From contig NZ_CP082301.1 in assembly GCF_019880305.1 (NCBI RefSeq), positions 3,038,001 to 3,102,000 on the forward strand: DNA of 64,000 nt, read 5' to 3'. Source of the stretch: Streptomyces decoyicus (GTDB taxonomy: Bacteria > Actinomycetota > Actinomycetes > Streptomycetales > Streptomycetaceae). The notes beneath the pieces are model-generated. The model did not search any database. It was not told the origin of the DNA and saw only the letters and a program-made list of their open reading frames with translations. A program made the translations under genes and the position numbers. Shown here piece after piece: positions 39,290-45,918 of the stretch (the first letter of the stretch is position 1; each line of letters begins with the position of its first letter).

Positions 39290-39883
39290 TCAGCCGAGGT
39301 GTCCGGTGTCGTTCCAGCGCTCGATCGCCGGCTCCCCGTAGGCCCAGCCGAGCACCGACAGGGACGTCGGCTCCAGCCGGATCCGGGCGCCGAAGGAGAT
39401 GTCCAGGCCCAGCCAGCGGGCGCCCAGGGCGCGCAGGATGTGGCCGTGCGCGAAGACCAGCACATCCCGGTCGGCCGAGCGCGCCCAGCCGATGACCTCG
39501 TCGGCCCGCGCGGTGACCTCGGCGAGCGTTTCGCCCTCCGGCACACCGTCGCGCCAGATGAGCCAGTCCGGCCGCCCCGACTTGATCTCGGCCGGTGTCA
39601 GGCCCTCGTACGCGCCGTAGTCGAACTCCATCAGCGCATCCCACTGCTGCGCCCGGTCCCCGAAACCGGCCAGCTCACAGGTCTCCTTCGCCCGCACGAG
39701 CGGGCTGGTGCGGACCTCGACGCCCGGCAGGCCGTCCCAGGGTGCGCGGTGCAGCCGCTCGCCCAGCAGCTTGGCGCCGCGCCGGCCCTCGTCCAGCAGC
39801 GGGATGTCCGTACGGCCGGTGTGCCTGCCGGACAGCGACCACTCGGTCTGCCCGTGCCTGGCCAGGAATATGCGCGCTGCCAT
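39290..39883 (-). CDS. Histidine phosphatase family protein (acid phosphatase / phosphoglycerate-mutase-like)
   Basis: 197 residues from the ATG at 39883, GAGAGG upstream. Branch-1 histidine phosphatase: the phospho-histidine motif [11 protein letters not shown], then [24 protein letters not shown] with the acidic donor, and the second His in [18 protein letters not shown]. Members include cofactor-dependent phosphoglycerate mutases, broad acid phosphatases and sugar phosphatases; the length and the FDYGxYEG signature fit the GpmB/acid phosphatase group. Divergent from the nuclease operon 266 bp away. Confidence 0.88.
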
Positions 39884-40149: not shown

Positions 40150-41433
40150 ATGTCGGTGCCGGATGCGAGACTTCCGCAGGTGAACGTTTTCCGCGACAGC
40201 CGACCCGCACCGGCCGCCCCCGGGGCGGAGCAGCCGGTGGCGACACCGGGCCTGCGGCAGAGGCTCACCGAACTGCGCGGCCCCGGGGTGCGCCCCCGCT
40301 CCCTCGACGCCCGCGCGCTCGCCGCGCTGGCCGCCAACCCCGGCTGCCGGCGCCGTGCGCTGCTGGACGGCGCGGGCATCGACAAGGGCGCGCTGGCCCA
40401 GGCGCTGGGCTCGCCCGCGGCGTACGGGCAGTCCCAGTTCGCGTTCGTCCGGGGCAATGCGTTCGAGGCCCGGGTGAAAGCCGACGGCGGCACGGAGTTG
40501 CTGCGGCTGCTGCACGAACGGCTGGCGCCCGGCACCCCCGCCCCCTCGCCCGATGAGGTGGCCACCCCGGATCTGTCCGCGGCCGGGCCCGAGGGCCGGG
40601 CGGCGCGTACGGCACTGGCGCTGCGCGAGGCGACCGCGGGCGGCGGCTGGGCCCTGCTCGACCATCCGCTGCTGGCCGTCGAGGTGGCCGGTTCGCCCGC
40701 CTATGTGGAGCCGGACGCGGTGGTGGTGCATCCGGACGGCGGCTGGACGGTCGTCGAGATCAAGTCCTTCCCGATGATCGACGGTTCGGCGGACGCCGCC
40801 AAGGTGGGCGCCGCCGCGCGGCAGGCGGCGGTCTACGTGCTGGCCCTGGAGCCGGTCGCGGGGCATGTCGGCGCGCACACCGGCCGCACGGTCCGGGTCC
40901 GCGACCGGGTGCTGCTGGTCTGCCCGAAGGACTTCTCCAACCTCCCCACGGCCGCGGCGGTCGACGTCCGCAAACAGCTGGCCACGACCCGGCGGCAGCT
41001 GGCCCGCCTCACCCGGGTCGAGGAGATCGCCGCCGCCCTCCCCGCCCGGACCACCTTCGACCTCCGGCTCGCGGACGACGGGAAGACCGCGACCCGCCCG
41101 CCCGAGGAGCTGGCCGAGGCCGTCGAAGCGGTCGGTGCGGCCTACGCCCCCGAGTGCCTGGCCGCCTGTGAGCTGGCCTTCCACTGCCGTAAGCGGTCCC
41201 GTCAGGACGGCGCGGTGGAGGCGCTGGGGCGCGGCGTACGGGGCGAGTTGGGCGGGCTGCGCACCATCGAGGAGGTCCTGGCGGCGGCCGGACCGGACGG
41301 CCCGGAGCCCCCCGCGGACCCGGACGGTCCACACGACCCGGCCGTGGTGGCGCTGCGACGGGCCGCCACGCTGCGCGCCGAGGCGCTGGCGGCCGTGCCG
41401 GCGCAGCGAGCGGAGGAGCCGGGATGTCACTGA
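40150..41433 (+). CDS. PD-(D/E)XK nuclease with probable Fe-S cluster (Cas4/Dna2/RecB-like)
   Basis: 427 residues if the ATG at 40150 is used (GTG at 40180 is an alternative; neither has a clear ribosome site). A PD-(D/E)XK core is visible: D189 in [14 protein letters not shown], then E203-I-K205 in [10 protein letters not shown]. One Cys lies before it (C66 in [10 protein letters not shown]) and three after it (C336, C340, C346: C-x3-C-x5-C). A 1+3 cysteine split around a RecB-type core is the 4Fe-4S arrangement of Cas4, AddB and Dna2. The likely activity is DNA cleavage or resection. It overlaps the next gene by 10 bp and belongs to an operon with an SF1 helicase. Confidence 0.82.
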
Positions 41434-42974
41434 TCGAGACGCTGGCCCGGATGGAGGCGGTCGCCACGGGCCGCGCGCAGCCGCGCTGCACGGTCCGGCA
41501 CCGCCATCTGTCCGAACGCCCCCTGGTCCTCGTCCTGTTGACGACCGCGGGCGAGGCCGGTGCCCCGCTGGGCGCGCTGGTCGGCACGGACCGCGAGAAG
41601 CCGCAGCTGCTGGCCGTTCCGCAGCCGCGCGACCGCGATCTGCGGTTCGCGTTCCTCGCCGAGCTGGCCGAGACGGTGCTGCCGTATGTGGACGGCTTCG
41701 CGGACGCCATCGAGTGGGAGGAGCGCAAGGAGACCGATCCGGAGACGGGCAAGAAGGTTCCGGTGCAGGTCGAACTGTGCGCGGACGCACCCCAGTTGAT
41801 CGTTCCGAGCGCCGCCGGTATCGAGTTCGTCCGGCTGCTGGGCCGCTCGATGCGGTTCCGGCGGACGGCCGAGCAGGAGCCGGAGACGCCGTACCCCGCA
41901 CCCCCGCACGTCCCGTTGCTGGGCCGCTGGCTGACCCATTTCGGCGAGCGGGCGCGGGTCCCGGGCGCGAGCCTGCTGCTGTCCATGACGGGCCTGCTGA
42001 CCCGCCACTGGGCGAGCGGCCAGAGCGTGCTGGAGGACCAGCATCTGGGCGCGCTGCTGTCCTGGATCGACCCGCCGCCGGGGCTGTCGGGCCAGGAGGC
42101 GGCCGAGCGCGCCGAGTCGGCGCGCGGCGCGGACGGGCAGCTGCTGTGCCCGCCGGCCGGCCCGGCCACCGACCCGGCGTTCGACAACCGGCTGCTGGCC
42201 CCCGCGATGGCCCGCTACGACGCCGGGCTGCCGGGCGCCGAGGACGCGCTCCGGGCCCTGGTCGAGGGGCAGCTGCGGCCGACCTGGGACGCCGTCTGGC
42301 ACGGCCTCGACCTGCTGCGGGCGCTCCCCGCGGGCAGCCGGGTCCCCGACCGCTGGAAGCGCGACCGCTGGTCGTACACGGCGCACCGCGACCGGGTGCG
42401 CGCCGGGGAGCCCCCGCAGCCCCGTCAGGACGACGCGGTCACCGCCGCGCAGAAGCTGTCCGCACGGGAGACCGCACAGGCCCAACTGGACGCCCAGGAA
42501 GCCCTGGACGACCCGTTGGTGATGGCGGGGCGCCGGCTGGCCGGCGAGGCGTTCCAGGGCACGGTCACCGCCGTCGAAATGGCGTTCTCCGAGGGCAAGC
42601 GGCCGATGCCCCGCCCGCTGGTCACGCTGCGCACGGCCGACCGTCCGCAGCTGTCCGAGGGTGGCAAGCTCTACCGCGCCCTGGCAGACGGCAGGACCCA
42701 GACCGCCGAATTCGTGGCGGCCGTGGGCGAGGAGCCGGGCGCGCTGGTGGTGCGGCTGACGGGCGGGATGGGGCGCGGGAAGACACCGGAGCCCGGTTCG
42801 GTGCCGGAGCCGGACGAGACCGTGTGCTGGACGCTGTTCGAGCACGCGCCGCGCGGCGGCCCGGAGCTCCCGGACCCCGAGGACACCCCGTGGACCCACG
42901 GCGGCCCCCCGCCCGGCGCCGCGGACGCACCGCACGCCTCCCCCGACCCCGTGACCCCGGAGGACTTCCTGTGA
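41424..42974 (+). CDS. Unknown protein of the nuclease-helicase operon
   Basis: 516 residues, ATG at 41424 behind GGAGGAG, overlapping the nuclease gene by 10 bp. No domain is recognised. The N-half mixes strands and helices (LVLVLLTTAGEAGAPLGALV, ELAETVLPYVDGFADAIEWE), the middle holds Arg/Trp-rich helices (RVPDRWKRDRWSYTAHRDRV), and the last 130 residues look like a beta-rich domain (GTVTAVEM, RPLVTLRT, GALVVRLTGGMGRGKT, VCWTLFEH). That last part resembles the beta-barrel (1B) that SF1B helicases have next to their ATPase core, so the helicase may be split over two genes. GGMGRGKT fits the Walker-A pattern by chance, I think. Confidence 0.7.
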   Translation: MSLIETLARMEAVATGRAQPRCTVRHRHLSERPLVLVLLTTAGEAGAPLGALVGTDREKPQLLAVPQPRDRDLRFAFLAELAETVLPYVDGFADAIEWEERKETDPETGKKVPVQVELCADAPQLIVPSAAGIEFVRLLGRSMRFRRTAEQEPETPYPAPPHVPLLGRWLTHFGERARVPGASLLLSMTGLLTRHWASGQSVLEDQHLGALLSWIDPPPGLSGQEAAERAESARGADGQLLCPPAGPATDPAFDNRLLAPAMARYDAGLPGAEDALRALVEGQLRPTWDAVWHGLDLLRALPAGSRVPDRWKRDRWSYTAHRDRVRAGEPPQPRQDDAVTAAQKLSARETAQAQLDAQEALDDPLVMAGRRLAGEAFQGTVTAVEMAFSEGKRPMPRPLVTLRTADRPQLSEGGKLYRALADGRTQTAEFVAAVGEEPGALVVRLTGGMGRGKTPEPGSVPEPDETVCWTLFEHAPRGGPELPDPEDTPWTHGGPPPGAADAPHASPDPVTPEDFL

Positions 42975-43014
42975 CCCGCGCCCGGTATGCGACCGCCCTG
43001 GAGAACACCGCCGT

Positions 43015-44397
43015 ATGACGGCCACTCAGGATCCCCACGCGACCACCACCGGCTCCTTCGATCCCGCCGCCGCGGCCGCCGCGGCGACCGAGGCGATCCT
43101 GCACGACACGCTGCACGGCTCCCGGCGCGGCGTGGTCGTGGACTCCCCGCCCGGCGCCGGCAAGTCCACCCTCGTGGTGCGGGCGGCCCGCGAACTGGCC
43201 GCCGCCGGACGCCCGCTGATGGTGATCGCGCAGACCAACGCCCAGGTCGACGACCTCGTGCTGCGGCTCGCCGAGAAGGACCCGCAGCTGCCGGTCGGCC
43301 GGCTGCACAGCAACGAGCCCGGCGCGTTCGACCCGGCGCTGGCCGAGCTGCCCGCGGTCCGTACGTCCGCGAAGGCCGCGGATCTCGCCGGGATGGACAT
43401 CGTGGTCTCGACGGCCGCGAAATGGGCGTACACGAAGGTCGACGAGCCGTGGCGGCACGCCATCGTGGACGAGGCCTACCAGATGCGCTCCGACGCGCTG
43501 CTGAGCGTCGCCGGGCTCTTCGAGCGGGCGCTGTTCGTCGGCGACCCGGGCCAGCTGGACCCGTTCAGCGTGGTCGGCGCGGAGCAGTGGGCGGGGCTGG
43601 CCTACGACCCGTCCGCGAGCGCGGTGTCCACCCTCCTGGCCCACAACCCCGATCTGCCGCAGCACCGGCTGCCGGTCTCCTGGCGGCTGCCCGCCTCGGC
43701 CGCGCCGCTGGTCTCCGCCGCCTTCTATCCGTTCACCCCCTTCCGCAGCGGCACCGGCCACGGCGACCGCCGGCTGGCGTTCGGGGTGCCGGGCGACGGC
43801 TCGGGAGTGGACCGCGTCCTGGACGAGGCCGCGGAGTCCGGCTGGGGCCTGCTGGAACTCCCCGCCCGCCGTACGCCGCGCACGGACCCGGAGGCGGTCC
43901 GCGCGGTGGCGCAGGTGGTGCGCCGGCTCCTGGACCGCGGGGGCGCCGCGACCAGCGAGGGCCGGCACGATCCGGACGGGGTGCCGGTCCCGGTGCCGCT
44001 GACCGCGGGCCGGATCGCGGTCGGCACGGCCCATCGCGACCAGGCGGCGGCCGTCCGCTCCGCGCTCGCCGGCCTCGGCGTGACCGGGGTCGCGGTGGAC
44101 ACCGCCAACCGTCTCCAGGGCCGCGAGTTCGATGTCACGGTCGTGCTCCACCCGCTCTCCGGCCGCCCCGACGCCACCGCGTTCCATCTGGAGACCGGAC
44201 GGCTGTGCGTGCTCGCCTCCCGCCACCGGCACGCCTGCATCGTGGTCTGCCGGGCGGGCGTCGCCGGCCTGCTCGACGAACACCCCTCGACCGAGCCGGT
44301 CCGGCTGGGCGTCACGGTCAAGTTCCCGGACGGCTGGGAGGCCAACCACGCCGTCCTCGCCCACCTGGCGGAACACCGGGTGGCATGGCGCCCGTAA
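43015..44397 (+). CDS. SF1 (Upf1/Dna2-like) helicase core
   Basis: 460 residues from the ATG at 43015, 40 bp after the previous gene. Helicase motifs in order: I SPPGAGKST (44-52), II VDEAYQM (D152-E153), III VGDPGQLDP (G176-L181), V VDTANRLQGREFDV (Q368-E371), VI LASRHRHACIV. There are only about 40 residues before motif I and no accessory or DNA-binding insert is obvious, so this is a bare motor. With the Fe-S nuclease two genes upstream it forms the two parts of a Dna2-type enzyme as separate proteins. Likely role: unwinding coupled to nucleolytic processing in repair or defence. Confidence 0.85.
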   Translation: MTATQDPHATTTGSFDPAAAAAAATEAILHDTLHGSRRGVVVDSPPGAGKSTLVVRAARELAAAGRPLMVIAQTNAQVDDLVLRLAEKDPQLPVGRLHSNEPGAFDPALAELPAVRTSAKAADLAGMDIVVSTAAKWAYTKVDEPWRHAIVDEAYQMRSDALLSVAGLFERALFVGDPGQLDPFSVVGAEQWAGLAYDPSASAVSTLLAHNPDLPQHRLPVSWRLPASAAPLVSAAFYPFTPFRSGTGHGDRRLAFGVPGDGSGVDRVLDEAAESGWGLLELPARRTPRTDPEAVRAVAQVVRRLLDRGGAATSEGRHDPDGVPVPVPLTAGRIAVGTAHRDQAAAVRSALAGLGVTGVAVDTANRLQGREFDVTVVLHPLSGRPDATAFHLETGRLCVLASRHRHACIVVCRAGVAGLLDEHPSTEPVRLGVTVKFPDGWEANHAVLAHLAEHRVAWRP

Positions 44398-44547: not shown

Positions 44548-44931
44548 ATGTCCGAGCCGCGACCGGCTCCCGACCCGCGTGGTACGGCGCCGGGACCACG
44601 GCGGATGAAGCCCGCGCAGCTGCTCTTCGAGCCGCCCGAGGCCGTCTCCGACCCCGAGCACTTCTTCGGCCTGGAGTCGATGGAGGACCCGCGCGAGCTG
44701 CTCAACCGTGCCACGGAGCTGGCCCTGGCCTTCCGCGCCGCGGCCGACCGCGCCACGGAATTCCAGGCACTGGCCGCGGCCCAGCTGACCGACCCCAGCC
44801 GGTTCGACCGGATGCCGCCGGCCGTGCTGGCGGAGCAGGCGGAGTGGACCGAGGACTATGCGCAGAAAATGATCGAGTTCGGCGCCAGTCTGATGCGCAG
44901 CAGCAGCGCACTGCCGGGCGACATGGACTGA
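44548..44931 (+). CDS. Small hypothetical protein after the helicase gene
   Basis: 127 residues from the ATG at 44548, GGAGG 7 nt upstream. A proline-rich start, then MKPAQLLFEPPEAVSDPEHF, then a helical region (PRELLNRATELALAFRAAAD, LAAAQLTDPSRF, QAEWTEDYAQKMIEFGASLM). Soluble and acidic. 150 bp after the helicase gene, so possibly but not surely part of that operon. No recognised domain. Confidence 0.72.
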   Translation: MSEPRPAPDPRGTAPGPRRMKPAQLLFEPPEAVSDPEHFFGLESMEDPRELLNRATELALAFRAAADRATEFQALAAAQLTDPSRFDRMPPAVLAEQAEWTEDYAQKMIEFGASLMRSSSALPGDMD

Positions 44932-45119: not shown

Positions 45120-45779
45120 ATGAGCGAATGGCTGCCTGAGACCCCCCGCACCCTGGCCTTTCCCACCGCCGCGTATGTCACCCTCGCGGGCGCCGACTGG
45201 CTCGCCTCCGCCAGCCCCCACCCCGACGAGATGCACGCCCTGTGGGCCACCCGCCCGGCCGCCCCGAGCGTGCTGCCGTGCGGCACCGCCTTCGACGTGA
45301 TCAACGCCCCCGCGCTGTTCGGGCGGCGGATGGCCGACCGTTTATGGTCCGACGGTCCCGGCTCGGGCCCGGTGGCGGCGCACCGCGGCCGGATCCTGCT
45401 CTTCGCCGCGCCGGGCACGGCCCAGCGGCTGCCCGCGCTGCTCGGCTGGGAGGAGTGGGCCACCGCCGTCCCCCCGCTGCTGTGCCATGGCAGCGGCGAT
45501 GCGGTCACCGTCCCGCCGCTGCACCCGCCCCGTGGCGCCACCGAGGACGCACCCGCGAACGCCCCCTTCCTGGCCGCCGCGGAGCCGCCCTTCCTGGCCG
45601 CCGAGGAACCGTCCGGCCCGGCCGGCTCCCGCTGGCTGGTGGCGCCGGACGTCCGCGACCCCTGGCTGCCGGGACCGGACGTACTGCTGTGGGCCTGTGT
45701 CCGCGCCGCCCGCTCCGTGGCCGGTCCCGAGAAGGAAACCGCAGCTCAGCACCCCGTTTCGGCGCTGACCCGGGGCTGA
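45120..45779 (+). CDS. Primase-polymerase-associated-fold-like protein with a TTA codon
   Basis: 219 residues from the ATG at 45120. Soluble; early SEWLPETPRTLAFPTAAYVT, then VLPCGTAFDVINAPALFGRR and GPVAAHRGRILLFAAPGTAQ, a layout found in the C-terminal part of Streptomyces proteins annotated as bifunctional DNA primase/polymerase, and shared with the protein at 36991. No primase active site. Codon 75 is TTA (45342-45344, in the segment ADRLWSDG), rare in Streptomyces and a mark of bldA dependence. A short Phe-Leu-Ala-Ala repeat lies at about residues 149-165. Function unknown. Confidence 0.75.
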   Translation: MSEWLPETPRTLAFPTAAYVTLAGADWLASASPHPDEMHALWATRPAAPSVLPCGTAFDVINAPALFGRRMADRLWSDGPGSGPVAAHRGRILLFAAPGTAQRLPALLGWEEWATAVPPLLCHGSGDAVTVPPLHPPRGATEDAPANAPFLAAAEPPFLAAEEPSGPAGSRWLVAPDVRDPWLPGPDVLLWACVRAARSVAGPEKETAAQHPVSALTRG

Positions 45780-45835: not shown

Positions 45836-45909
45836 GCGCCGCTAGCTCAGTTGGTTAGAGCAGCTGACTCTTAATCAGCGGGTCCGGGGTTCGAGTCCCT
45901 GGCGGCGCA
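45836..45909 (+). tRNA. tRNA-Lys (anticodon CTT), copy 1
   Basis: 74 nt. Acceptor GCGCCGC/GCGGCGC, anticodon stem GCTGA/TCAGC, loop CTCTTAA with CTT at 45870-45872, discriminator A; CCA is not encoded. Identical to the gene at 62763. Confidence 0.97.
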
Positions 45910-45918
45910 CAGACAGTC

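Follow-up and report, generated by a model that had tools for sequence, protein, structure and literature searches.

A Streptomyces gene trio that probably encodes a DNA2/Bad-type helicase-nuclease split at its domain borders

The window analysed here is a 64,000-nucleotide stretch of the Streptomyces decoyicus genome (contig NZ_CP082301.1), corresponding to 3.04-3.10 Mb of an 8.63 Mb single-contig genome. Within it, three consecutive genes on the + strand, hereafter N, M and H for the first, second and third, encode a predicted nuclease, a middle subunit and a helicase motor, which most likely form one DNA2/Bad-type helicase-nuclease split into three subunits at domain borders (probability of about 0.72). 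Computation of the genes, their motifs and their predicted folds places them collinearly on DNA2, finds them to co-occur obligately and assigns them to the core genome of Streptomyces. Since the pieces match DNA2 and Bad in order and related copies stand beside anti-plasmid and anti-phage systems, the trio is probably an undescribed machine for DNA-end processing or immunity; no described equivalent in Streptomyces was found in the literature.

Three proteins in the domain order of DNA2

Aligned to DNA2, N takes up positions 37-425, M positions 462-569 and H positions 645-810, consecutively and without overlap (the range of H is a sequence index, those of N and M follow the entry numbering). 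On IGHMBP2, M covers 7-159 and H starts from about 204, so that the gene order is the domain order of DNA2. An earlier note, made from the letters of this DNA, had suggested that three separate proteins might rebuild a Dna2/AddAB-type machine; the DNA2 part of that suggestion is borne out by the collinear and consecutive mapping, whereas the AddAB part falls, H being Upf1/DNA2-like and not UvrD-like. The three open reading frames (ORFs) and the residues that the note had singled out in N (C66, C336, C340, C346, D189, E203 and K205) were all found at the places it gave, from ORF coordinates on the one hand and from the translation and alignment of N on the other. By these coordinates, N shares 10 nt with M, and 40 nt separate M from H. 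The features of the trio are as follows:

40150..41433, + strand: N, iron-staple-type PD-(D/E)XK nuclease of 427 amino acids (aa), from four invariant Cys, D-ExK, QxxxY and the predicted fold
40345..40347, + strand: C66, first putative iron-sulphur (Fe-S) cysteine of N, from homologue conservation
40714..40764, + strand: active-site region of N, D189 (40714-40716) to E203-x-K205 (40756-40764), from motif and conservation
41155..41187, + strand: C336-x3-C340-x5-C346 of N, three further putative Fe-S cysteines, invariant in homologues
41424..42974, + strand: M, middle subunit of 516 aa, with an N-terminal alpha/beta and helical domain whose fold has no detected relative, from the model and the lack of a family match
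42429..42890, + strand: M residues 336-489, predicted stalk helix and 1B beta-barrel of superfamily 1B (SF1B, Upf1/DNA2-type), from fold comparison of the model
43015..44397, + strand: H, bare Upf1/DNA2-type superfamily 1 (SF1) helicase core of 460 aa, from PDB profile matches and motifs
43144..43167, + strand: Walker A of H (SPPGAGKS, K50), from motif and conservation

By its motifs and predicted fold, N is a RecB-family nuclease with four putative Fe-S cysteines spanning the domain, and it may well carry an Fe-S cluster. The AlphaFold model (predicted local distance difference test, pLDDT, 87) has its best VIA matches in Cas4 (Z 10.3), then in RecE/lambda-type exonucleases, Exo5, MGME1, AddB (8.0) and Dna2 (7.1). 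Sequence searches found no match in Pfam, NCBIfam or PADLOC, and the profile of N retrieved no credible relative from the PDB, the matches being designed repeat proteins. The ORF runs from an ATG at 40150 to a stop ending at 41433; its precise beginning is uncertain because conservation begins around residue 36 and model residues 1-22 have a pLDDT below 50. In an alignment of 31-32 homologues, C66, D189, C336, C340, C346 and Y229 are exceptionless and E203, K205 and Q225 nearly so, and in a wider set (n = 45) the cysteines C336, C340 and C346 are invariant (45/45), as is C66 in the 44/44 sequences that cover it. Loss of the cysteines in homologues, which the earlier note had named as evidence against its reading, was thus seen in neither set. 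Their spacing, C-x3-C-x5-C, is one residue longer than the C-x2-C-x5-C of AddB, Cas4 and Dna2.

The 45 homologues also retain D189, E203-x-K205 and QxxxY (Q225, Y229), with the exception of one accessory Streptomyces clade (L150, L171-L176) and of L147. That clade, found next to Hma, MTase_III or other defence genes, has a decayed active site, with G102E and K205R in all members and E203L in most, and that of L147 is likewise degenerate (E203A). The clade retains the four cysteines of N and the helicase motifs, and the persistence of cysteines where the active site is decayed would fit a structural Fe-S staple, a role described for AddB and Bad (PMC7430649).

Regarding M, neither Pfam, NCBIfam nor PADLOC gives a match, and its sequence profile finds no credible relative in the PDB. 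Its AlphaFold model (pLDDT 88) nevertheless has in residues 336-489 a predicted stalk and 1B barrel, placed between the nuclease and the RecA core of the trio; this part resembles the stalk and 1B of IGHMBP2 (residues 7-159) with a VIA Z of 9.8 over 130 residues and Dna2 462-569 with a Z of 7.6 and a root-mean-square deviation of 2.7 Å. The other chains with a Z of at least 8 are Sen1 structures only (8.3-8.4), i.e. all four chains at this level are Upf1-like helicases, and the suggestion that the beta-rich end of M is 1B-like holds for the predicted model. The first ~330 residues have no match in the VIA list, a whole-chain search that tests this part poorly.

As for H, its sequence identifies an Upf1-like SF1B helicase core, with the SF1 motifs present (P-loop at residues 44-51, motif II DEAYQ) and matches to AAA_11/AAA_12-type SF1 models. 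Among PDB sequences the closest is DNA2 (4.4e-7 with the single sequence, 4.3e-12 with the profile), followed by IGHMBP2 (9.7e-12, profile). No domain stands ahead of the P-loop, in agreement with the SF1 motor without accessory domain announced earlier; as H has neither stalk nor 1B and M has both, M would provide what H lacks. Wherever homologues have data at the motif columns, the motifs are intact, save for the distant L157, which diverges at motif V. In PADLOC, H gives weak ATPase matches at most (best 2.7e-6), and none of the anti-phage systems described there is matched by N, M or H.

The resemblance of M to IGHMBP2, the nearest fold for its C-terminal part, together with the activity of Upf1-like helicases on both RNA and DNA, could suggest an RNA-directed machine, in which a nuclease accompanies an RNA helicase of the Upf1/IGHMBP2 kind. 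This is very improbable, since N groups structurally with the DNA-acting Cas4, AddB, Dna2, Exo5 and MGME1 and since the relatives of the trio neighbour DNA-acting systems.

Several known systems share parts of this layout. IGHMBP2, Sen1 and Upf1 have the stalk, the 1B barrel and the same class of RecA core, but there a single polypeptide holds both 1B and RecA core and carries no nuclease. AddAB, AdnAB and RecBCD combine a RecB-family nuclease (with Fe-S in AddB) with SF1 motors; these are however UvrD-like SF1A motors with the nuclease fused, whereas the trio has an Upf1/DNA2-like H and a separate nuclease gene, and an AddAB/RecBCD-type reading was rejected on the AAA_11/AAA_12, DNA2 and IGHMBP2 matches of H. 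Cas4, including UvrD-Cas4 and Cas4-like plus helicase loci, some of which adjoin type III restriction-modification genes, likewise pairs a Cas4-type nuclease with an SF1 helicase, but the latter is a 3'-5' UvrD-type enzyme and no M-like subunit is described (PMC5704561, the text of which mentions neither Actinobacteria nor Streptomyces); the trio, for its part, is without CRISPR genes. Eukaryotic DNA2, to which H has its best PDB match, accommodates N, M and H one after the other along its chain; unlike the trio, it is a single chain, is essential in eukaryotes and has no detected counterpart of M 1-330.

The nearest architecture is that of Bad from Geobacillus stearothermophilus, in which an Fe-S nuclease, a central domain called 'completely unknown' and an SF1B motor follow each other, as in the trio, within one chain of 1245 aa; it has a 5'-3' motor and single-stranded DNA (ssDNA) endonuclease activity, and its biological role is given as unknown (PMC7430649). 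Bad is reported as rare and sporadic (PMC7430649), in contrast to three genes that are core in Streptomyces. The earlier remark that the organisation is unlike any DNA-repair operon stands for the three-gene form, and is qualified by this single-chain counterpart. While the trio is likened to DNA2 and Bad by its architecture, it lies strictly outside that class, as the defining single chain is absent.

An obligate trio in the core genome of Streptomyces

All three genes are present in an identical set of 48/297 Actinomycetia genomes, with no partial sets (single weak matches in G310 and G311 aside), which meets the earlier concern that the three genes might not be conserved together; the single weak matches in G311 and G418 were dismissed as chance, no such gene being in the frame. 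Where two copies exist (G012, G016, G031, G036), the copy numbers of the three genes are equal. In 77/77 Streptomyces loci holding all three, order and strand are identical, and in G237 and G329 H is retained although it lies ~36 and ~50 kb away from N-M. Order and C-x3-C-x5-C spacing are also kept in L157, a distant trio from another actinobacterial class.

A two-gene form exists besides, in which a fused N+M-like protein precedes an H homologue. The nuclease part of the fusion matches N at E 1.1e-9, with the cysteines spaced C-x2-C-x5-C, and the H homologue matches H at 3.7e-22. This form is chromosomal in G310, the fused gene (scored alone) recurs in six further genomes of the family, and the distribution is patchy, with a full-length match in 7/198 genomes of that family. 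On two Rhodococcus plasmids (L166 8935-17905, L169 8935-17908), the fusion and the H homologue form a tight four-gene run with a type III-like methyltransferase and a ResIII helicase; Bad similarly adjoins a type III-like methyltransferase (PMC7430649). Scanning the phylum with the profile of the two-gene form gave no matches, a result of little weight.

The perfect co-occurrence, the matched copy numbers, the link kept with H distant, the order N-M-H in L157 and the N+M-like fusion next to H all support a split machine. That the three are independent enzymes merely sharing an operon would draw on the confident, self-contained models of N and M; it is scarcely credible given that no genome has a subset, that the trio persists with H ~36-50 kb off and that the first two are naturally fused elsewhere.

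Some observations weigh against a split machine. The case for it was computed on separate proteins, from which a physical N-M-H complex is presumed, and the 1B assignment of M is that of a predicted model, against which unrelated ferredoxin-reductase-type barrels score a Z of up to 7.9. Foldseek alone gives no match at E <=0.001 for N or M, and no relative of the N-terminal domain of M was detected. The M part of the fusion, though at the collinear place, matches M insignificantly (E 0.02-0.25), and sequence comparison did not establish homology between M and the central part of the fusion.

The window copy is part of the stable core genome of Streptomyces. M was found in 137/148 genomes of the order, and the trio is absent from three Streptomyces with smaller genomes. 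A TPR regulator, the histidine phosphatase, N, M, H and a small protein follow in this order in 62/62 Streptomyces loci, a sample that leans to close relatives as it consists of the loci that match N best; downstream, a Prim-Pol protein, a predicted secreted protein and a PAS-GGDEF-EAL protein are found in 48-60/62. The two fixed neighbours are:

39290..39883, - strand: histidine phosphatase (His_Phos_1), divergent, fixed upstream neighbour outside the system, in 62/62 Streptomyces loci
44551..44931, + strand: small conserved protein 3' of H, without Pfam match and of uncertain membership, in 62/62 Streptomyces loci

Among trio loci outside Streptomyces, none of those searched was found to have the small protein. 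The Prim-Pol-domain protein (window 45120-45779), near the trio in 60/62 loci, adjoins tRNA-Lys (45836-45910). At the Streptomyces locus, the neighbours of the trio are the histidine phosphatase, Prim-Pol, tRNA-Lys and GGDEF-EAL genes, with neither cas1/cas2 adjacent nor a defence gene nearby. In a concatenated tree, weak at its deep nodes, the window copy groups with the other core Streptomyces copies in a clade of good support, from which the accessory copies of the genus are separate. A mobile or defence-island origin of this copy was rejected on its fixed synteny. Phage records contained no M and viral contigs no N; M was present in just three records of a plasmid collection, including a Nonomuraea replicon as large as a chromosome.

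Regarding other surroundings, N-M in L140 and L144 lies near a GGDEF-EAL gene 41-42% identical to that near the Streptomyces trio, H having moved away, an arrangement which perhaps preserves remnants of an old shared neighbourhood. A TIGR03491-type RecB nuclease and RNase H-like protein is directly downstream of the trio in L157 (5059-6753), and a TIGR03491 protein in a frame of 1180 aa lies ~18-19 kb from the two-gene form of G310.

Accessory copies beside defence systems

Many non-core copies carry a fourth gene of ~280 aa directly upstream of N (family A8, e.g. L167 2318-3163), which has no database match and possibly a weak N-terminal coiled-coil (E 0.003). It was not found in the window genome; it occurs in 14/119 genomes of the order, its coordinates matching accessory copies where compared, and is carried by L128-L134. 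Two Streptomyces plasmids (L179 6093-22426, L180 208-14021) have sbcC-sbcD divergent from the four-gene module, followed by a complete Wadjet I jetABCD; in one of them sbcCD is annotated as short fragments only. In L146 (1051-13652) and L153 (3842-15208), sbcCD and the four-gene module are followed by the Wadjet II gene JetA2 (DUF2397), with JetB2 (DUF2398) in L146. Two types of Wadjet (I and II) are hence joined to one and the same module. Next to the module are also found sbcCD and a restriction-type SF2 helicase (L151, L152), HmaA-HmaB (L150), a large helicase-like gene with MTase_III (L173 and L174, as scored, which L175 and L176 resemble by position and sequence start) and HEC-07-like and PD-Lambda-1 genes (L171, L172). 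In the Nonomuraea copy L168 and some other chromosomal copies from outside Streptomyces, the fourth gene is present and the neighbourhood shows no obvious defence genes.

A link of these accessory relatives with immunity is strongly suggested, on adjacency that comes without a background rate, plasmids and chromosome arms being defence-rich anyway. The pattern suggests that the module acts after DNA cutting by a defence system, together with Mre11-Rad50. The defence system envisaged by the earlier note is plausible for the accessory relatives, whereas the window copy, a core locus without defence neighbours, lends it no support.

Both candidate roles of the core trio are compatible with a split machine. 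As an intrinsic immune system of Streptomyces degrading foreign DNA that enters in linear or broken form (from phages, plasmids or transformation), which is somewhat short of an even bet, it would agree with the Wadjet I, Wadjet II, Hma, MTase_III plus helicase-like and HEC-07-like/PD-Lambda-1 genes, often with sbcCD, beside its accessory relatives, with the patchy two-gene form on Rhodococcus plasmids bearing Mod and ResIII genes, and with the methyltransferase next to Bad itself; yet defence systems known so far are usually patchy, whereas the window copy is near-universal in the genus, has ordinary fixed neighbours (62/62) and is without the fourth gene. As a housekeeping repair or replication factor in 5' flap or stalled-fork processing, or in double-strand break resection parallel to AdnAB, for which the chances are about even, it would agree with vertical inheritance of a core gene set, with the preserved active-site residues of the Streptomyces core clade and with the DNA2 architecture. 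Against the latter role stand the presence in 48/297 Actinomycetia, the three smaller-genome Streptomyces that lack it and the fact that no repair gene adjoins it; being absent from these three and from most Actinomycetia sampled, the trio is not essential in general. For the core copy, genome maintenance, i.e. DNA-end or flap processing beside AdnAB, is slightly likelier than intrinsic immunity.

A possible mechanism and its significance

As a split helicase-nuclease, the trio would comprise N as the iron-staple nuclease, H as the RecA-like motor and M as the supplier of the stalk and 1B barrel that normally stand ahead of the RecA core in an SF1B helicase. The complex would load on a free 5' end or flap, H would move 5' to 3' using the 1B of M, as in DNA2/Upf1-type motors, and N would cut the displaced or threaded strand, yielding processed or degraded DNA ends. 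By analogy with the central domain of Bad and from its position between N and the motor, the ~330-residue domain of M may scaffold N on the motor and guide ssDNA.

More tentatively, with odds somewhat below even, N-M-H (plus the fourth gene in accessory loci) could be a hitherto undescribed DNA-end-processing module recruited by many defence systems: Wadjet, Hma or restriction enzymes would cut or mark invading DNA, SbcCD (Mre11-Rad50) would open the ends and the split DNA2-like complex would degrade that DNA, in a bacterial parallel to the MRN-DNA2 pathway, the core three-gene version having been fixed in Streptomyces as a permanent DNA-surveillance enzyme.

Nearly every Streptomyces species sampled thus appears to possess a DNA2-like machine of several subunits that as yet has no name. 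Unlike in the single-chain DNA2 and Bad, the nuclease, the coupling domain and the motor of such a split enzyme would be separately purifiable and mutable, and the relatives with four cysteines but a lost active site offer natural tests of Fe-S staple versus nuclease roles. Besides, with relatives recurring beside Wadjet, Hma and restriction-modification genes, in several cases together with sbcCD, the fate of DNA after cutting by these systems would become testable.

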